Shown piece by piece: positions 2,619 through 16,462 of a stretch of 34,340 nucleotides of DNA (positions within the stretch are counted from its first letter, which is position 1; each line of letters starts with the position of its first letter). Source of the DNA: Gammaproteobacteria bacterium (GTDB taxonomy: Bacteria > Pseudomonadota > Gammaproteobacteria > Xanthomonadales > Xanthomonadaceae); the NCBI GenBank assembly GCA_025352045.1, contig JANXUD010000015.1, positions 1-34,340 of the forward strand, given 5' to 3'. The notes beneath the pieces are model-generated. The model was not told the DNA's origin, searched no databases, and saw nothing but the letters and a program-made list of their open reading frames with translations. The translations under genes and the position numbers were made by a program.

Positions 2619-3131
2619 ATGCCGCACAGGATCGCCCAGGGAATTGCCATCGCCGTCCAGGTCGGCATGCTTGCCATCGTGCTGGGTTTGGGCGCTGGCG
2701 CCGCGCTTGCCGCGCCGCCGGGCGAAAACGTGACCTGGGGCTATGCGCAGGTGCTGCGGGCCGCGCCCGTGTACGAAACGCAACAGGTCCGCGTCCCCGA
2801 GGAGCGCTGCGATGGCAGTCGCGGCGTGGGCGGGACGGTGGCTGGCGCGGTGGTCGGCGGTGCGCTCGGCAACCAAGTGGGTAGGGGCGACGGCCGCAAG
2901 GCCGCGACCGTGGCCGGGGCCGTGCTGGGCGGTGTGATCGGGCGGCGCGTGGATCGCAGTGGCGCGCACTGCCGCACGGTCGAGGTCGAGCACGAGGAAC
3001 GCCGGCTGGTGGGCTACGACGTGGAATACCAGTACAAGGGCCAGGCCTACATGTCCCGGATGGCAACCGACCCCGGCAACCGGTTGCGGGTGCGAGTGTC
3101 GGTGCAGCCTGACGATCCGGCTGCGCACTAG
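2619..3131 (+). CDS. Secreted glycine-zipper (17 kDa antigen-like) envelope protein
   Basis: A 170-residue protein with a long hydrophobic N-terminal signal (about residues 8-31, cleavage probably after ALA). Its centre (about residues 68-108) alternates Gly/Ala with small residues (GGTVAGAVVGGALGNQVG, then VAGAVLGGVIG), the glycine-zipper pattern of the Rickettsia 17 kDa surface antigen family. Two cysteines flank this segment and could form a disulfide. There is no lipobox, so it is probably periplasmic or outer-membrane associated but not a lipoprotein. The start is supported by GGAG at 2609-2612. The precise function is unknown. It is divergent from cysS, with 156 bases between them. Confidence 0.85.
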   Translation: MPHRIAQGIAIAVQVGMLAIVLGLGAGAALAAPPGENVTWGYAQVLRAAPVYETQQVRVPEERCDGSRGVGGTVAGAVVGGALGNQVGRGDGRKAATVAGAVLGGVIGRRVDRSGAHCRTVEVEHEERRLVGYDVEYQYKGQAYMSRMATDPGNRLRVRVSVQPDDPAAH

Positions 3132-3134
3132 GCT

Positions 3135-3163
3135 CCCCAACCGGGGGCATGCCGGTTGCGGGG
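3135..3163 (+). terminator. GC-rich hairpin directly after the glycine-zipper gene
   Basis: CCCCAACCGG at 3135-3144 can pair with CCGGTT (3152-3157) and, past a two-base bulge, GGGG (3160-3163), over a seven-base loop. It begins three bases after the stop codon. There is no T tract, so it is not a classic intrinsic terminator. It may protect the 3' end or help termination, and it covers the proposed -35 box of the next transcript. Confidence 0.35.
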
Positions 3164-3185
3164 CTGGCCCATGGGCTGACATACT
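3156..3185 (+). promoter_or_regulatory. Candidate promoter of the arginine operon leader
   Basis: TTGCGG (3156-3161) and CATACT (3180-3185) are separated by 18 bases. Start of transcription would be expected around 3192-3194, where an ATG begins the small leader ORF at 3194. The 13-base string GACATACTGCCGG (3178-3190) occurs again at 12339-12351, just upstream of the lipoprotein gene, which supports a promoter core. No AT-rich ARG box (ArgR site) is visible. Confidence 0.4.
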
Positions 3186-3193
3186 GCCGGCCC

Positions 3194-3298
3194 ATGCTGC
3201 CCACGCCCGCCAACGCCGAGATCCTGACGTCCGCCCGGATGGCTTCGGGCATGACCTCGCGCGCGCGCCGGCCGGGACCCCGACAAGCCGCTGGGTAG
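3194..3298 (+). CDS. Candidate 34-residue leader peptide with clustered Arg codons
   Basis: An ATG-to-TAG frame of 34 codons lies between the candidate promoter and a strong intrinsic terminator, upstream of the arginine operon. Arg codons are 15, 23, 25, 26 and 30, three of them within four codons (CGC-GCG-CGC-CGG), and codon 30 is CGA, which is uncommon in such GC-rich genomes. There is no Shine-Dalgarno sequence; the ATG sits where transcription would begin. The last sense codons (GCT GGG) contain the sequence that can compete with the terminator. I read it as a possible arginine attenuation leader. Arg codons are common by chance at this GC content, so this is a hypothesis that needs comparative support. 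Confidence 0.35.
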   Translation: MLPTPANAEILTSARMASGMTSRARRPGPRQAAG

Positions 3299-3333
3299 CC
3301 TGGACGCGTCACGGTTCCAAGCCAAAGCCCAGC
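3290..3333 (+). promoter_or_regulatory. Possible antiterminator stem of the arginine leader
   Basis: GCTGGG at 3290-3295 is an exact copy of the start of the terminator's 3' arm (3339-3344) and can pair with CCCAGC at 3328-3333, the terminator's 5' arm. The two pairings exclude each other. A ribosome stalled on the Arg codons at 3260-3271 would leave 3290-3295 free; one that reaches the stop at 3296-3298 would cover it. The helix is only 6-7 bp, against 10 bp for the terminator. Confidence 0.3.
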
Positions 3334-3350
3334 CCCGCGCTGGGCTTTTT
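3324..3350 (+). terminator. Intrinsic terminator ahead of argF' (attenuator candidate)
   Basis: A perfect 10-bp stem, AAAGCCCAGC (3324-3333) with GCTGGGCTTT (3339-3348), a five-base loop and a T run ending at 3350. It is the strongest rho-independent terminator in the window. It ends 68 bases before the argF' start codon and 26 bases after the small leader ORF, with no ordinary gene before it on this transcript except the glycine-zipper gene nearly 200 bases upstream. It can be the terminator of that gene or an attenuator of the arginine operon. Confidence 0.8.
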
Positions 3351-3392
3351 CGTTTCCGATTTCCCCGTTTCCATCGACCCCACCCGGCAGCC

Positions 3393-3422
3393 ATGAACCA
3401 CCCTTCACGGACGAACCAATGA
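3393..3422 (+). other. Nine-codon upstream ORF overlapping the argF' start
   Basis: ATG at 3393 opens a frame of nine codons (MNHPSRTNQ, one Arg codon CGG) whose TGA overlaps the argF' ATG in the ATGA arrangement used between the genes of this operon. argF' itself has no good Shine-Dalgarno sequence, so this mini-ORF could deliver ribosomes to it. It is very short and may be chance. Confidence 0.25.
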
Positions 3423-4423
3423 AACACTTCCTCAACACCCAGGACTGGGCCCGCCCCGACCTCGACGCCCTGCTCGAGCAGGCGGCGCGCTTCAAGCGCG
3501 ACAAGCTGGGCGACCAGCTGCGCGGCAAGTCCATCGCGCTGCTGTTCTTCAATCCCTCGCTGCGCACCCGCACCAGCTTCGAACTGGGCGCCTTCCAGCT
3601 GGGCGGGCACGCGGTGGTGCTGGCGCCGGGCAAGGACGCCTGGCCGATCGAGTTCGAGTCCGGCGTGGTGATGGACGGCGAGGCCGAGGAGCACATCGCC
3701 GAGGTCGCGCGGGTGCTGTCGCGCTATGCCGACCTGATCGCCGTCCGCGCATTCCCAAAGTTCCAGGACTGGTCCGTGGACCGCCAGGACCGGGTGCTGC
3801 GCGGTTTCGCCAGGCATGCCACGGTTCCGGTGATCAACATGGAGACGATCACCCATCCCTGCCAGGAACTGGCCCACATCCAGGCATTGCAGGAACATTT
3901 CGGCAGCACCGACCTGCGCGGCCGCAAGTACGTGCTCACCTGGACATACCACCCGAAGGCGCTCAATACCGCCGTCGCCAATTCCGCGCTGACCATCGCC
4001 ACCCGCTATGGCGCCGACGTCACCTTGCTGTGCCCGACCCCGGACTACGTGCTCGACGAACGCTACATGGAATTCGGCGCCCGCAACGCCGCCGACAACG
4101 GCGGCTCGCTCACCGTCAGCCACGACATCGCCAGCGCCTATGACGGGGCCGACGTGGTCTATGCCAAGAGCTGGGGCGCCCTGCCGTATTTCGGCCGCTG
4201 GGACGAGGAGAAGCCGATCCGGGACCAGTTCCGGCACTTCATCGTCGACTCGGGGAAGATGGCGCGCACCCGCGACGCCGTCTTCAGCCATTGCCTCCCG
4301 CTGCGTCGCAACATCAAGGCCACCGACGCGGTGATGGACTCCGCCGCCTGCATCGCGATCGACGAGGCCGAGAACCGCCTGCACGTGCAGAAGGCGATCA
4401 TGGCCGCGCTGGTCGGGCAGTAG
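3419..4423 (+). CDS. argF': N-acetylornithine carbamoyltransferase (AOTCase)
   Basis: A 334-residue transcarbamylase that carbamoylates N-acetyl-L-ornithine to N-acetyl-L-citrulline, a step that replaces ornithine carbamoyltransferase in Xanthomonas-type arginine synthesis. The carbamoyl-phosphate loop is SLRTRTSF (47-54), with HPCQE and HCLPLRRN further on. Comparison with the Xanthomonas campestris enzyme as I know it (offset of two residues) puts Glu90 at the position of its Glu92, which selects acetyl- over succinyl-ornithine, Trp75 in KDAWPIE, and Lys300 at its carboxylated Lys302. This identifies an AOTCase, not ArgF/OTCase. It is the first gene of the arginine operon and lies 68 bases behind a terminator. 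Confidence 0.96.
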
Positions 4424-4500: not shown

Positions 4501-5733
4501 ATGTCCAGCAGCACCAATCCCCAATCCCGCGACCCGAACAGCCAGGGCCAGGACGTCGTCCTCGCCTTCAGCGGCGGCCTCGACACCAGTTTCTGCGTGC
4601 CCTACCTGCAGGAGCGCGGTTACCGCGTGCACACCGTATTCGCCGACACCGGCGGCGTGGACGACGACGAGCGTGCCTTCATCGAGGCACGCGCGGCCGA
4701 GCTCGGCGTGGCCTCGCATGTCACCGTCGATGGGGGGCCGGCGATCTGGAGCGGCTTCGTGCGGCCCTTCGTCTGGGCGGGCGAGGGCTACCAGGGCCAG
4801 TATCCCCTGCTGGTTTCGGACCGTTACCTGATCGTCGAGGCAGCCCTGGCGCGTTGCGCCGAGCTGGGAACGAAGCTCGTCGCGCATGGCTGCACCGGCA
4901 TGGGCAACGACCAGGTCCGTTTCGACCTGGCGGTGAAGGCCCTGGGCGACTACACGATCGTCGCGCCCATCCGCGAGATCCAGAAGGAACACACGCAGAC
5001 CCGCGCCTACGAGCAGGCCTACCTGGAACAGCGCGGCTTCCGCGTGCGCGCCAAGCAGAAGGCCTACACCATCAACGAGAACCTGCTCGGCCTGACCATG
5101 TCGGGTGGCGAGATCGATCGCTGGGAAGCCCCGGGCGAAGGCGCGCGCGGCTGGTGCGCCTCGCGCGCCGGCTGGCCGGCCGCGCCCCTGCGCGTGACGG
5201 TTGGCTTCAGGAACGGCGAGGCGCTGTCCCTGGATGGTGAACCGATCGCCGGCCATACGCTGTTGGCGAAGCTCAATGCGCTGTTCGCGGCGTACGGCGT
5301 GGGCCGCGGGCTGTATACGGGCGACACGACCATTGGGCTGAAGGGCCGGATCATCTTCGAGGCGCCGGGCCTGACCGCCCTGCTCGCCGCGCATCGCGCG
5401 CTGGAGGAGGCCGTGCTGACCAAGGCCCAAAACCGCTTCAAGCCCGAGGTAGCGCGCAAGTGGGTGGAACTGGTCTATGAAGGCTTCTTCCACGACCCGC
5501 TTAAGACCGACATCGAAGCTTTCCTGGCCTCGAGCCAGCGCTGCGTCAATGGCGAAGTGGTGCTGGAGACGCAGGGCGGTACCGTGGCTGCCGTCGCGGT
5601 GCGATCCCCGCACATCCTCAACGCCAAGGGCGCGACCTATGCGCAGTCCGCGGACTGGGGCGTGGAGGAGGCGGAAGGTTTCATCCGCCTCTATGGAATG
5701 AGCAGCACGCTGTGGGCCGAGGTCAACCGCTGA
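4501..5733 (+). CDS. argG: Argininosuccinate synthase
   Basis: A 410-residue enzyme joining citrulline and aspartate with ATP. The pyrophosphatase-type P-loop is [10 protein letters not shown] (about residues 21-30), preceded by a polar, poorly conserved N-terminal extension. I chose the ATG at 4501 because the upstream part of the open frame overlaps argF' and is not argG-like; the site before it (GCAGAGAAC) is only a weak ribosome binding site. The TGA overlaps the next ATG (TGATG at 5731-5735). In the acetylated route, citrulline is made by the ArgE' enzyme encoded next. Confidence 0.97.
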
Positions 5734-6824
5734 TGCGCCAACGCATCCTCCGCCACCTCGAGGCCCTGGTCGCGTACGATACCCGCAATCCGCCGCGGGC
5801 GATCGGCCCCGACGGGATCTTCGACTACCTGCGCGCGCACCTGCCGGGCTTCGAGTTCACGCTCACCGACCATGGCGCGGGCGCGGTGTCGCTGCTGGCC
5901 CGGCGCGGCAGCACCGACCGCCTGGTCAACGTGCACCTCGACACCGTGCCGTCCTCGCCTGCATGGACGGGGGATCCGCTGCGCTTGCGCGTGACGGACG
6001 ATCGCGCGATCGGCCTCGGCGCCTGCGACATAAAGGGCGCGGCGGCCTGCCTGGTCGCCGCGGCGGAATCGAGCACCGGCCCGGTGGCGATGCTGTTCAG
6101 CACGGACGAGGAAGCCAACGACGCGCGCTGCATCGCCGGTTTCCTGGCCACCGACCACGGCTTTCGCAACGTCATCGTGTGCGAACCGACCCAGTCCCAG
6201 GCCGTGCTCGCGCACCGGGGCATCGCCTCGGTGCGGATCGCCTTCCGGGGCGAGGCCGGGCATGCCTCGGCGGAGAACGCCGCCTCGCTCAGCGCCGTGC
6301 ACCAGGCCATGCGCTGGGGCGTGAAGGCGCTGGACGCGGCAGCGGGCATGGCGCATGCACGCTTCGGCGGGCTGACCGGCCTGCGCTTCAACATCGGCCG
6401 CATCGAGGGCGGCATCAAGGGCAACGTCATCGCTCCGTCCTGCGAGGCGCGCTTCAATTTCCGCCCGCTGCCGTCCCAGTCCATGGCCGACCTGCACGCC
6501 CTGTTCCGCGGCCTGGCCGACGCCGACGTGCTCGCCGATTACGAGGAAACGTTCCAGGGCCCCAGCCTCCCGGCGGGCAACGTCGCGGCGGCGGAACAGC
6601 GTCGCCTGGAAGCGCGCGACCTGGCCGATGCGCTGGAACTGTCCATCGGCAACGCGGTGGATTTCTGGACCGAGGCCGCGCTGTTCTCGGCCGCCGGCCT
6701 GACCGCGCTCGTGTACGGTCCGGGCGACATCGCCCAGGCCCACTCCGCCGACGAGTGGGTCGCGCTGGAGCAGTTGGACACGGTGGGCGCGGCCTTCCTG
6801 CGCATCATGGGTGGGTCGCGATGA
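5733..6824 (+). CDS. argE': N-acetyl-L-citrulline deacetylase (M20 family)
   Basis: A 363-residue M20-family metallohydrolase. In Xanthomonas its counterpart removes acetate from N-acetylcitrulline, giving citrulline for ArgG, and the match to that protein is close over the full length (TRNPPRAI near the N-terminus, VHLDTVP at 67-73, CDIKGAAA around 98, STDEEAND at 123-130, [10 protein letters not shown] and [15 protein letters not shown] near the end). His68 and Asp99 are likely metal ligands, Asp70 and Glu126 the usual catalytic partners. Its place beside the AOTCase gene supports acetylcitrulline as substrate. It starts inside the argG stop and overlaps argB by ATGA. Confidence 0.94.
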
Positions 6825-8128
6825 ACGACGTGCGTCCCACCATCGTCCGCCTGCTGTCCAACATGGGCAGCGCCAAGGAGATCCAGCAGTACCTGCGCCG
6901 GTTCTCGCAACTGGACGCGGCGCGCTTCGCCGTGGTCAAGGTTGGCGGCGCGATCCTGCGCGACGAACTCGAGGCCCTGGTGTCGTCGCTGGCCTTCCTG
7001 CAGCAGGTCGGCCTGACCCCGATCGTCATCCACGGCGCTGGTCCGCAGCTGGACGAGGCGGTCGCCGCGGCCGGGATCGAAAAGCGCAGCGTGGATGGAT
7101 TGCGCTTCACCGATCCCGCCACCCTGGCTGTCGTGCGCCGGGTGTCGCAGCAGGAGAACCGCCGCCTGGTCGAAGCCTTGCAGGCCCAGGGCGTGCGCGC
7201 GACCTCGATCACCGCGGGCGTGTTCGAGTCCGAGCCGCTGGATGCCGGGCGCTATGGCCTGGTCGGCAAGGTGGTCGGCGTGCACACCGACGCGGTGCTG
7301 GCCGCCGTGCGCGCGCGTTCGATCCCGGTCATCGCCTCGCTGGGCGAAACGGCGGGCGGGCAGATCCTCAACGTCAACGCCGATTGGGCGGCGAACGAGC
7401 TGGTCAAGGTCCTGCAGCCCTACAAGATCGTCTTCCTGACCGGCACCGGCGGCCTTCTCGATGCCGACGGCGACCTCATCGATTCCATCAACCTGTCCAC
7501 CGAGTACGACGCGCTGATGGCCCAGCCCTGGGTGCATTCGGGCATGCGCATCAAGATGGAACAGATCCACGACCTGCTGATGCAGCTACCGCCATCCTCG
7601 TCGGTGTCCATCACGCGGCCGGACGAGCTGGCCAAGGAACTGTTCACCCACCGCGGCTCCGGCACGCTGGTGCGGCGCGGCGAGAGAGTGCTGGTCGTCG
7701 AGGGCTGGGGCGATCTGGACCTGGACCGCCTGCGCGAGCTGATCGAAAGCGGCTTCGGACGCAAGCTGGCGCCGGACTACTTCGCCACCATCACCCCACA
7801 TCGCGTGTTCGTCAGCGAGCACTACCGGGCCGCCCTGGTGTTGACGCTGGAGGAGGGCATCCCGCACCTGGACAAATTTGCAGTCTCCGAGGATGCGCAG
7901 GGCGAGGGCCTGGGCCGCGCCGCCTGGCAGGTGATGCGCGATGCCACCCCGCGCCTGTTCTGGCGCTCGCGCGCGGACAATCCCGTCAACGATTTCTACT
8001 TCGACGAATCCGATGGTTGCCTGAAGGGACCGAAGTGGAACGTGTTCTGGTACGGGCTGGAATCCTGGGACGACATCCGGTTCGCCGTGGACCACTGCCG
8101 CGCGCGCCCCGCGTCGCTGAAGGACTGA
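6821..8128 (+). CDS. argB: Bifunctional acetylglutamate kinase / N-acetylglutamate synthase
   Basis: A 435-residue fusion. The N-terminal amino-acid-kinase domain (about 1-285) has VVKVGGAIL at 38-46 and the HGAGPQLD glutamate-binding loop at 71-78. The C-terminal part (about 290-435) is the NAT/GNAT domain, with the acetyl-CoA stretch [11 protein letters not shown] and the NPVNDFYF segment typical of the vertebrate-like NAGS group. It therefore carries out the first two steps of arginine synthesis, as described for the Xanthomonas NAGS-K enzyme, which is feedback-inhibited by arginine. Ordinary ArgB is about 260-300 residues. The start at 6821 gives an ATGA overlap with argE'. Confidence 0.95.
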
Positions 8129-8129
8129 G

Positions 8130-8744
8130 ATGCCCGATTCCGCCAGCTTCTGGACCCAGCCGGTCTCGCTCGCCGGGCGCCACGTGCGCCTCGAGCCGCT
8201 CGCCATGGAGCATGCGGCGGGCCTGCGCGCCGCCGTCGCCGACGGCGAGCTGTGGCGGCGCTGGTACACCGCCGTGCCGCAGCCCGATGGCGTCGAGGCC
8301 TACATCCGCACCGCGCTGGACGGCCAGGCCGCGGGCACGGACCTTCCGTTCGCGGTGTTCGACGCCGACGGCGCCCTGGTCGGCAGCACCCGTTATTGCC
8401 GCATCGAGCAAGCCAACCACCGGCTCGAGATCGGCTACACCTGGTATGCCGAACGCGTGCAGCGCACCGCGCTGAACACCGAGGCCAAGCGCCTGCTGCT
8501 GGCGCACGCGTTCGAGGACCTGGGCGCGATCGCGGTGGAGTTCCGCACCGCCTGGTTCAACCACCGCTCGCGCGCCGCCATCGCGCGGCTGGGCGCCAGG
8601 CAGGATGGCGTCCTGCGCAATGCCACGCGCAATCCCGGCGGGGGCTACCGCGATACCGTCGTCTTCTCGATCATCGACTCGGAGTGGCCGGTGGTGCGCT
8701 GCAACCTCGACCAGGTCCTCGCCAACGGAGGCCGCCGGCCATGA
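8130..8744 (+). CDS. GNAT-family (RimJ/RimL-type) N-acetyltransferase
   Basis: A 204-residue protein of the RimJ/RimL-like acetyltransferase group: [12 protein letters not shown] at the N-terminus, a central [18 protein letters not shown] acetyl-CoA region, and the [29 protein letters not shown] stretch (shown here as family landmarks 127-157) that forms the conserved C-terminal fold. Its substrate is unknown. It lies between argB (one-base gap) and argC (ATGA overlap), so it is a stable member of the arginine operon and may act on an arginine-pathway amine or on a protein. It is separate from the NAGS domain of ArgB. Confidence 0.85.
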
Positions 8745-9682
8745 GCCTGAAGATCGGACTGGTTGGCGCGCGCGGGCATGTCGGAAGCGAGTTGATCCGG
8801 CTGCTCACGGCGCATCCGGACTTCGAGCTGGCCTTCGTCGCTTCGCGTGGCCGCGACGGCAGGGCATTGTCGGAGTTCGAGGCTAGCGCGCCCGACCTGC
8901 GCTACAGCAACCCCACGCCCGTGGAGGCCGCGGCCTCCGGCGTCGATGCGCTGGTGCTGGCCCTGCCCAACGGCGCGGCCAGCGAGTACGTCACCGCCGT
9001 GGATGCGGCTGCGCCAGGCACCGTGTTGCTCGACCTGTCTGCCGACTATCGTTTCGACGACAACTGGTACTACGGGCTGCCCGAACTCACCCGGGCCCAC
9101 GCGGCCGGCAAGACGCGCATCTCCAATCCGGGCTGCTACGCAACGGCCATGCAACTGGCCCTGGCGCCGCTTTGCGACCTCCAGTCCGCGCCCGCGCAGT
9201 GCTTCGGCGTGTCGGGTTACTCGGGCGCCGGCACCTCGCCCTCGGACAGGAACGATCCCGACAAGCTGCGTGACAACCTCATGCCGTACTCGCTCGTCGG
9301 TCATATCCACGAGCGCGAGGTCGCGCGGCAGCTCGGCACGCCGGTCGAGTTCATGCCGGTGGTCGCAGCGCATTTCCGCGGCATCACGATGACCGTCAAC
9401 GCCCATCTTCTCCGGCCCCTGGCACCCGGGCAGGTACGCGGGCTGTTCGAAGACCACTACCGCGGCGAGCCGCTGGTCCAGGTGATCGATGCAGTGCCCT
9501 GGGTCAGCGCCATCGCCGGCAAGCCGGGGGCGCAGGTCGGCGGGTTTACCATGTCCTCCGACGGGCGCCGGCTGGTGCTGGTTTGCACCCTGGACAACCT
9601 GCTGAAGGGCGCGGCGACGCAGGCCCTGCAGAACCTCAATCTTGCATTCGGCTTCGAGGAAACCATGGGGATGTTGTTATGA
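8741..9682 (+). CDS. argC: N-acetyl-gamma-glutamyl-phosphate reductase
   Basis: A 313-residue NADPH-dependent reductase for the third step of arginine synthesis. The Rossmann motif [17 protein letters not shown] starts at residue 5, the catalytic cysteine is in [10 protein letters not shown], and GYSGAG follows. The length is in the normal range of the type-1 enzyme. The ATG at 8741 overlaps the GNAT gene's stop by ATGA, and the gene's own TGA overlaps argH the same way. Confidence 0.97.
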
Positions 9683-10959
9683 GCGAGTTGCTATGGCAGA
9701 AACCCGGTACCCGCGTGGACGAACGCATCCAGCGTTTCCTCGCCGGCCGCGATGTCCTGCTCGACCGCGAGCTGTTCGTCTTCGACATCGAAGCGAGCGC
9801 CGCACATGCGGAGGGGCTGGCAAAGATCGGCATCCTCACCGGCGAAGAACTCGACGCGATCAAGCGCGAGCTGGGGGCGCTGTCGATGGACTTCGTCAGC
9901 GGCGCCTTCGTGCTGGACGAACGCTATGAGGACGGGCACTCGGCGATCGAGTCGCGGCTGGTGGAGCGGCTCGGCGAAACGGGCCGCAAGATCCACACCG
10001 GGCGCAGCCGCAACGACCAGGTGCTGGTCGCCACGCGCTTGCACCTGCGCGCGGCCCTCGGCCGCCTGCGCGGGCATTCGGTGGCGATCGCGCGCGTGGC
10101 CCTGGACCGGGCCGGCGCCGACGCGGCCCTGCCGATGCCTGGCTACACCCACCTGCAACGGGCCATGGTCTCGTCCGCGGGGCTGTGGTGGGCGGGCTGG
10201 GCGGAGGCCTTCATCGACGACGCGCAGCTGGCCCGCGACACCGCCGCATGGGTCGATGCCAATCCGCTTGGCTCCGCATCGGGCTATGGCGTCAACCTGC
10301 CCCTGGACCGCGGCTACACCACGCGCGCGCTCGGCTTCTCGCGCATGCAGGTCGCGGCCACGTACGCGCAGCTTTCGCGAGGCAAATTCGAGCTGCAGGC
10401 ACTGACGGCGCTGGGACAGGCGCTGCTGGACGTGCGCCGCCTGGCCTGGGACCTGAGCCTGTTCGCCAGCGCCGAGTTCGATTTCATCTCCTTGCCGGCG
10501 GAGTACACCACCGGCTCGTCGCTGATGCCGAACAAGCGCAACCCGGACCTGATCGAGCTGCTGCGCGCCAGCTATGTCGTGGTCGCCGGCGCACGCACCG
10601 AGATCGAGCAGTTGCTCTCGCTGCCCTCGGGCTATCACCGCGACCTGCAGTTCAGCAAGGAGCCCCTGCTGCGCGCCTTCGCGCATGGCCTTGACGCGCT
10701 GGCCCTGGTGCCCGACCTGCTGGCGCGGATGGAATGGAAGCCGGCGGTGATGCGCGCCGCCATCGACGACGGAATGTTCGCCACCGACAAGGCGCTTGAG
10801 TTGGCAAAGGACGGCGTGCCGTTCCGCGATGCCTATCGCCAGGCGGCGGAATCGCCATTGCCGCGTGCCGGCAACGACCCGGATGCCAGCCTGCGTGCCC
10901 GCCGCGAGGCCGGCTTCGGCGCCCTCGATGCCCTGCACGCGCGACTCGATGCACTCTGA
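9679..10959 (+). CDS. argH: Argininosuccinate lyase
   Basis: A 426-residue member of the fumarase/aspartase superfamily that splits argininosuccinate to arginine and fumarate. The family signature [12 protein letters not shown] contains the catalytic serine; [10 protein letters not shown] and TPLQ-like GYTHLQRA are the other substrate-binding blocks. It is somewhat shorter than the E. coli enzyme (457). It is the last recognisable arginine gene of the operon. The following reading frame starts 11 bases before its stop. Confidence 0.96.

Positions 10960-16385: not shown

Positions 16386-16462
<77 letters not shown>

Follow-up and report, generated by a model that had tools for sequence, protein, structure and literature searches.

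The window, meaning the whole 34,340-nucleotide stretch of DNA that was analysed (contig JANXUD010000015.1 of assembly GCA_025352045.1, from a member of the Xanthomonadaceae), carries on its plus strand argF', argG, argE', argB, a GNAT-like open reading frame (ORF), argC, and argH in a row, and we infer that the six arg genes are co-transcribed (Table 1). The GNAT-like ORF lies at 8130-8744 between argB and argC; its sole NCBIfam match is far below the cut-off, and it is possibly an acetyltransferase of the arginine pathway. Ahead of argF' stand, in this order, a promoter-like pair, a 34-codon ORF with Arg at codons 15, 23, 25, 26, and 30, and an intrinsic terminator whose hairpin has ten pairs and a loop of five, and the last codons of the ORF contain GCTGGG, a copy of the 3' arm of the terminator. 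An earlier sequence-only reading of the same DNA had picked out these parts and taken them for an arginine attenuator, and all of them, including the T-rich tail of the terminator, are present as it described them. Upstream, a glycine-zipper-like gene at 2619-3131 was matched in 105 of the 116 argF' loci described below and cysS in 109. Elsewhere, the window contains a tRNA gene at 16389-16462 on the minus strand (64.3 bits), and tRNA is the only Rfam family found in the window at the gathering threshold. Four leader peptides searched against NCBIfam and Pfam gave no family at E values up to 1.

Table 1. Features of the leader and of the arginine operon behind it, in window coordinates.
Feature	Position	Strand	Evidence
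Predicted promoter: TTGCGG 3156-3161, 18-nt spacer, CATACT 3180-3185	3156..3185	+	sequence
Predicted transcription start, about 2 nt 5' of the leader ATG	3192..3192	+	-10 position and Xoo5 homology
Leader peptide ORF MLPTPANAEILTSARMASGMTSRARRPGPRQAAG, 34 codons and TAG	ATG 3194, TAG 3296-3298	+	open frame, conservation
Conserved peptide block SARMASGMTSRARRP, codons 13-27 (strict part: 16-26)	3230..3274	+	pN/pS, residue counts
Predicted regulatory Arg codons, CGC-(GCG)-CGC-CGG = RARR	3260..3271	+	conservation
Segment 1, pairs with segment 2	3272..3282	+	predicted fold, flank covariation
Segment 2: GCTGGG 3290-3295 and stop codon; pairs with segment 1 or 3	3289..3303	+	folds, covariation
Segment 3, GCCCAGC, part of the terminator 5' arm	3327..3333	+	folds, covariation
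Intrinsic terminator: 3:4 hairpin 3324-3348 and T-rich tail	3324..3352	+	terminator prediction, conservation
argF', N-acetylornithine carbamoyltransferase	3419..4423	+	NF003384, 600 bits
argG, argininosuccinate synthase	4501..5733	+	NF003385
argE', acetylornithine deacetylase, start codon unsettled	5712..6824	+	NF006439
argB, acetylglutamate kinase	6821..8128	+	NF003386, residues 287-719 of ORF 5963-8128; start inferred from match
argC	8750..9682	+	TIGR01850, residues 167-474 of ORF 8252-9682; start inferred from match
argH	9733..10959	+	TIGR00838, 274.7 bits, just under the 279.5-bit cut-off; start inferred from match

The argF' loci used for comparison came from the best 80 of at least 572 relatives and from further genomes of the genus and the family. 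There were 137 such loci, 132 of which matched at 1e-60, and these gave 117 upstream regions distinct by their last 200 nt. One of them (L068) is cut off 93 nt upstream of argF' and was left out, so that 116 testable regions remain, 63 of which make up a non-redundant set, with the hexamer present in 59. An alignment was built from 45 of the 63, and at least four loci in which the hexamer is misaligned (L026, L035, L043, and L111) were retained in it. One argF' (G003:C1:2427635-2428635) appears as two matches that overlap, owing to a frameshift or a sequencing error. A degenerate leader pattern, in which little but positions one and two of the T, S, R, A, and R codons is fixed, was matched by 115 of the 117 distinct regions, the other two being a variant with SRAH (L061) and the truncated L068, and leader peptide and terminator occur together in all 116 testable regions. 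The third positions of the leader codons are variable while the first and second are nearly constant, and in the 54 nt before the core the leader frame has no stop in any of the 116 loci, whereas stops interrupt the two alternative frames in 70 and in 6 loci. Among the 63 non-redundant loci, pN/pS from the M to the last R (codons 20-26) is 0.037 in the leader frame, as against 5.5 and 2.2 when read in the two others; upstream of the core it is 0.22 for codons 16-19 and 0.98 for codons 12-15, and for the five tail codons after RRP (28-32) it is 0.935. These values show strong selection on the peptide MASGMTSRARR but not on the tail. Residue counts in 115 loci agree in detail, with A at -6 and at -3 in 115, G at -1 in 109, and M in 114. 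The substitution pattern together with the open frame in 116/116 thus marks the leader ORF as a translated one, as far as comparison of sequences can tell.

It had been cautioned that Arg codons are frequent by chance at this G+C content. Conservation and the coding signature lead us to reject chance, although not every Arg codon named by the sequence-only reading shares in the conservation: codons 23, 25, and 26 (RARR) are kept, codon 15 is variable (R 79, Y 23, W 9, and A 4 in 115 loci), and codon 30 falls in the unconserved tail. Judged by conservation, then, it appears that only the three codons of RARR matter. The last of them is CGA in 112 of the 116 loci, the window being the sole locus with CGG, and CGA is otherwise rare in the operon's first gene, where it accounts for 22 of 2178 Arg codons (1.0%) in 116 argF' genes. 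CGA is a slow codon, and it may have been chosen here for waiting; alternatively, the choice may reflect a constraint on the RNA. Two loci (L111 and L133) have Thr in place of the final Arg (RART) and an earlier stop codon, and both keep GMTSRAR and the terminator. Translation need not begin internally, at the invariant MTSRAR ATG (3251), as codons 16-19 are already constrained and the upstream ATG is set by its distance from the promoter; given the value of 0.98 at codons 12-15, both starts may nevertheless be used.

The RNA elements were compared in the same loci. Nine terminator pairs were counted, of which 99% are formed, with 31 cells changed on both sides, a number that 0 of 500 shuffles reach. 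In 97 of the 116 regions the stop codon directly follows GC(T/C)GGG, and this hexamer can pair with the 5' arm of the terminator. The sequence-only reading had staked itself on a competing pairing conserved in relatives along with the Arg codons. Such a pairing is found there: in the 63 non-redundant loci the variable base of the hexamer and its partner in the terminator arm are T-A in 40, C-G in 10, T-G in 6, and C-A in 3, and the hexamer was not found in 4 (Fisher p 2.5e-5 on 59 loci, uncorrected for relatedness). The four loci without a hexamer by the pattern used and the three C-A mispairs are counted against an attenuator. Because the terminator already forces segment 4 to match segment 3, it is the covariation of segment 2 with both that is informative. 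Of the 2:3 pairs 93.9% are formed, against 46-56% when the pairing is slid by one column; 8 cells are changed on both sides (1/500 shuffles), and the covariation score is reached by 7/500. The antiterminator is thus exclusive with the terminator and covaries with it, although shuffles often do as well on two of five measures (number of pairs with both sides changed, 383/500; number of pair types, 369/500). The sequence-only reading gave it six or seven pairs, but it is longer, with a predicted energy in the window of -18.9 kcal/mol versus -15.5 for the terminator; over 59 loci the means are -19.8 and -16.1 kcal/mol, so that the 2:3 hairpin can compete. Its interior has a mean z of -0.73 relative to mononucleotide shuffles, with 44 of 59 loci below zero.

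One more element, which goes beyond the first reading, is a predicted 1:2 hairpin located between the Arg codons and GCTGGG, with a mean of -11.1 kcal/mol and, relative to mononucleotide shuffles of segment 1, a mean z of -0.87 (38 of 59 below zero, p 6e-5). On its flank, core codons 7-8 and the bases following GGG form four or more Watson-Crick pairs in 34 of the 59 loci, a count that 0 of 1000 re-pairings among loci reach (mean 21.2, maximum 30), and the four inner pairs show no covariation beyond shuffles (73/500). The ORF, the Arg block, the position of the stop codon, the terminator, and the alternative 2:3 pairing are documented by these comparisons, and the 1:2 hairpin is supported less firmly than they are. 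To be counted against an attenuator are the fold of the whole leader in the window, which is like that of its shuffles (z 0.03), the inner 1:2 pairs without covariation, the 1:2 fold that betters the shuffle mean in no more than 38 of 59 loci, and the two 2:3 measures on which shuffles often do as well. RNAalifold, run on the alignment from the core to the terminator, returned, besides the terminator, just one small helix, which does not covary.

Where transcription begins can be judged from the promoter and from a published RNA. A sigma-70 consensus scan of the window called no promoter at 3156-3185. In the relatives, the 8-nt bin 34-41 nt ahead of the leader ATG contains 101 starts of TTG[CT], versus 2-11 in each of ten other bins, and TTG-N16-18-NANNNT ending 6-10 nt before the ATG is present in 99 of 115 loci and in 48 of the 63 non-redundant ones, the spacer being 17 in 97 loci with the promoter pair. 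Since the pair ends 6-10 nt before the ATG, the start should lie within a few nucleotides of it. Sequence homology further identifies the leader with Xoo5 (Rfam RF02242), an sRNA of the Xanthomonadaceae. In the window the full-length alignment (3201-3317 over model positions 1-124) falls at the syntenic site before argF' with 47.1 bits (E 6.8e-9), under the 50-bit gathering cut-off, and a Xanthomonas locus (L018; 150.7 bits) and a Stenotrophomonas locus (L054; 103.6 bits) likewise align over the full model and score above it. The gathering score is passed by 16 of 20 loci and by 1 of 8 in a set chosen for diversity. The structure line of the Rfam model draws seven pairs of the 1:2 hairpin, and the model, which is 124 nt long, begins cuAUG and ends before the terminator.

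The published Xoo5 was found to be 124 nt by RACE and cloning, and Northern blots gave about 130 and about 100 nt, varying with growth phase (PMC3039613). It was sited between PXO_00354 and PXO_00353, the latter being N-acetylornithine carbamoyltransferase and PXO_00352 argininosuccinate synthase in the protein table of that paper (PMC3039613). The retrieved text describes the RNA as non-coding and names no ORF, attenuation, or link to arginine (PMC3039613). By homology and synteny it is the same element as the leader, and it differs in being described as non-coding and in a model that stops before the terminator. The equal lengths of 124 nt suggest that the start of the model is the RACE 5' end. 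This mapped end, from a relative, is then read as lying 2 nt ahead of the leader ATG, which makes a nearly leaderless mRNA probable. A start mapped beyond the terminator had been named as fatal to the attenuator; the published 5' end of the homologue lies upstream of the leader ATG instead, in a relative of the host species. Counted against an attenuator is the distance from start to terminator in the Xanthomonas locus L018, which at 156-162 nt is longer than the published sizes. The cloned 3' end precedes the terminator hairpin, and trimming would have to explain the short RNAs.

The distribution of the leader was followed with a covariance model built from the 45 aligned loci, which leans on the terminator. 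In the host genome it scores the leader at 92.3 bits and the next best match at 24.9, and it matches 288 of 297 genomes of the family. Nine family genomes have no match. One of these (G081) has no argF' match and six (G025, G033, G074, G137, G154, and G255) have weak ones (E 2e-12 or worse), so argF' itself appears to be absent or not found in those seven assemblies; in G133 just 93 nt precede argF' and the terminator is present. The ninth, G060 (L276, 140-360), has ...VLTSAYMAAGMTSRARR... in an open frame that extends 17 codons past RARR, and its terminator seems the weaker one; this attenuator may be decaying while its peptide remains conserved. We count G060 against an attenuator, but neither it nor G133 nor G372, which is considered below, alters the overall case. 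Across 152 genomes of the order, the matches above 52 bits number 62 and fall in families f1, f2, f3, and f12 and in one genome (G421) of f7. Of these, 61 stand on the strand of argF' and 24-155 nt ahead of it, and the 62nd adjoins an argF' match at a contig end. Matches below about 42 bits are a mixture of leaders adjacent to argF' (f4, f6, and f7) and apparently ordinary terminators, and a class-wide search of 274 genomes gave outside the order only three matches (37-39 bits), which we read as chance terminators. The 17-base core pattern occurs once in the host genome and in 75 of 151 genomes of the order, versus 14 for the reversed control.

In the more distant families f4-f10 we sampled 40 argF' upstream regions, and a terminator precedes argF' in 37 of them (doubtful in L268), being missing in the single f5 locus and in two f9 loci; six of the seven families thus keep it. 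In the sampled loci of f4 and f6-f10 GMTSRAR is absent and the peptide is a different one, mostly with Arg runs. At least four Arg in seven codons are found in 28 of the 37 loci with a terminator, whereas of seven other amino acids none exceeds 7 loci, proline having 7 and alanine 5. Taken singly, the Arg run reaches p < 0.05 in just 16 of the 37, which we count against an attenuator. By eye, GCTGGGT stands before a CCCAGC...GCTGGG terminator in many of these loci. Clustered codons for the product of the argF'GE'BCH operon are therefore found both in the crown families, as RARR, and in the distant ones, as Arg runs. Among loci with a visible leader, argF' is at least 69% identical to that of the window where GMTSRAR is present and at most 69% where it is not; G354 and G372 (80% and 70% argF' identity) were excluded, as their argF' is cut off or at a contig end. 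From this distribution the GMTSRAR peptide looks like a later addition to an older form with Arg codons. That distant families keep Arg codons and terminator while the remainder varies fits codon counting. In three f7 loci (L245, L259, and L261) the terminator is 130-193 nt from argF', farther than in the other sampled f7 loci, and an insertion is possible.

Ribosome-mediated attenuators control amino-acid operons in Proteobacteria through the trp, his, leu, thr, ilv, and phe leaders. Their scheme combines a small reading frame, rich in codons of the amino acid made, with overlapping 1:2, 2:3, and 3:4 hairpins, an intrinsic terminator, and a stop codon on segment 2. We consider it highly probable that the leader described here is a ribosome-mediated transcription attenuator of argF'-argG-argE'-argB-argC-argH that responds to charged tRNA-Arg. 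It has the classic geometry, with the stop directly after the hexamer in 97/116 and RARR directly before segment 1, and it is from this arrangement that we infer the response to arginine and the positions of the ribosome. Specifically, transcription would begin about 2 nt before the leader ATG and translation at once. When charged tRNA-Arg is plentiful, the ribosome would reach the stop codon on segment 2, allowing the 3:4 terminator to form, and transcription would end before argF'. When it is scarce, the ribosome would wait in RARR and mask segment 1, segments 2 and 3 would pair, and the operon would be read. Without translation, the 1:2 hairpin would form and the terminator with it. The comparisons thus favor the interpretation given by the sequence-only reading, to which they add the predicted 1:2 hairpin, the Arg codons that appear relevant, the probable near-leaderless start, and the conserved residues other than Arg.

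It is these other residues that give weight to the alternative that survives best, in which the peptide itself is the sensor, either because ..MASGMTSRAR, while still in the exit tunnel, halts the ribosome or slows it down at RARR, or because the free peptide acts in trans. It would use the same alternative hairpins and be more than a counter of charged tRNA-Arg, and we regard it as possible but doubtful. The residues other than Arg are constrained like Arg, with T, S, and A inside the pattern matched by 115 of the 116 testable regions; pN/pS rises steeply right after the block; G060 retains GMTSRARR in spite of a drifted tail and terminator; and a trans action has been reported for peTrpL, the peptide encoded by a leaderless attenuator of Sinorhizobium meliloti (PMC7298713). 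Some of the constraint may, however, sit in the RNA, and sampled distant loci without GMTSRAR keep the terminator and often the hexamer. Since in those families the terminator is kept without GMTSRAR, mostly together with Arg runs, Arg codons seem sufficient there. We suggest, as a tentative extension of the attenuator, that the nearly invariant chain A..MA.GMTSRARR and the fixed rare CGA could form a ribosome-pausing sensor laid over an older Arg-codon attenuator, with the tunnel-borne peptide conferring hypersensitivity to a small drop in charged tRNA-Arg, the near-leaderless start providing early loading of the ribosome, and the accumulated Xoo5 RNA being the peptide's terminated messenger; the peptide may also act in trans.

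Two further alternatives appear very improbable. The first is that the leader reads a signal other than Arg-tRNA, such as translation slowing down in general or an RNA fold that binds arginine. Any stall at RARR would antiterminate, and the nearly fixed CGA would respond to general slowing; yet the identity of the codons follows the product of the operon, Arg runs recur in a different peptide context in distant families, and the consensus fold between core and terminator offers little besides the terminator itself. The second, equally remote, is that Xoo5 is a trans-acting non-coding sRNA that merely overlaps the 5' region of argF'. It is filed as an sRNA in Rfam and was seen on Northern blots in two sizes that depend on growth phase, but deletion mutants of seven of the eight sRNAs, of which Xoo5 may be one, are reported to have no obvious phenotypes (PMC3039613). 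The RNA contains an ORF with a coding substitution pattern, and all but one of the strong matches lie just upstream of argF' on its strand, on which grounds we reject a purely non-coding sRNA; a role in trans may exist as a by-product. That the terminator merely ends the glycine-zipper gene, on the same strand and about 190 nt before it, with the ORF there by chance, had been raised in the first reading and is rejected as next to impossible, as 11 of 116 loci without a tblastn match to that gene retain leader and terminator and as the coding signature, the covariation of the hexamer, and the published start of the homologue all speak against it.

With the classic attenuators the leader shares end-product codons, the 2:3 and 3:4 hairpins, an intrinsic terminator, and a stop codon on segment 2, and it may share the predicted 1:2 hairpin; it differs from them in its Arg codons, in the nearly invariant part of the peptide that is not Arg, and in a probably nearly leaderless mRNA. 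The fungal arginine attenuator peptide, SpeFL, and other arrest peptides arrest the ribosome at or near the stop codon on free amino acid. Like the leader peptide, they are conserved upstream peptides tied to the supply of arginine or ornithine; here, however, conservation stops at RARR, before a variable tail. The attenuator RNA of S. meliloti trpL (rnTrpL / peTrpL) has its 5' end at the leader ATG, and the same source restates the two mutually exclusive structures of the trp attenuator (PMC7298713). A start at or near the leader ATG would be the point of likeness, resting here on the promoter spacing and on the RACE end of one relative read off the start of the model; the amino acid there is Trp and the peptide has 14 residues. 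The carAB operon of Pseudomonas aeruginosa is likewise related to arginine and has a leader peptide and an attenuation mechanism, but its stem-loop is there for the control by pyrimidines, and the operon still responds to arginine when the stem-loop is absent (PMC4997734). The sequence-only reading knew of no arginine attenuator in this group, and in the open-access PMC literature we found none ahead of argF'; a prior mention is possible. What appears new, within a known kind of attenuator, is Arg as the amino acid, the probably nearly leaderless start, and the conserved peptide.

If the mechanism is correct, arginine joins the amino acids read by ribosome-mediated attenuators, the orphan sRNA Xoo5 acquires a concrete role, and a control is found for the arginine operon in an order of which 144 of 152 searched genomes gave no ArgR match. 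It also poses the question of why the peptide of a counting device should keep residues other than Arg (GMTS and A) across families while the next residues drift freely. The search for ArgR used one model only, TIGR01529, and gave no match in the host genome, with the control responding in 9 of 14 genomes, and nothing above the cut-off in the 152 genomes of the order. Weak ArgR-like matches below the cut-off were seen in eight of the 152, all of family f11 (G316, G325, G333, G340, G346, G352, G364, and G370), and a search for argF' at 1e-100 gave no match in any of nine f11 genomes. From these distributions the repressor ArgR and the attenuator look mutually exclusive.
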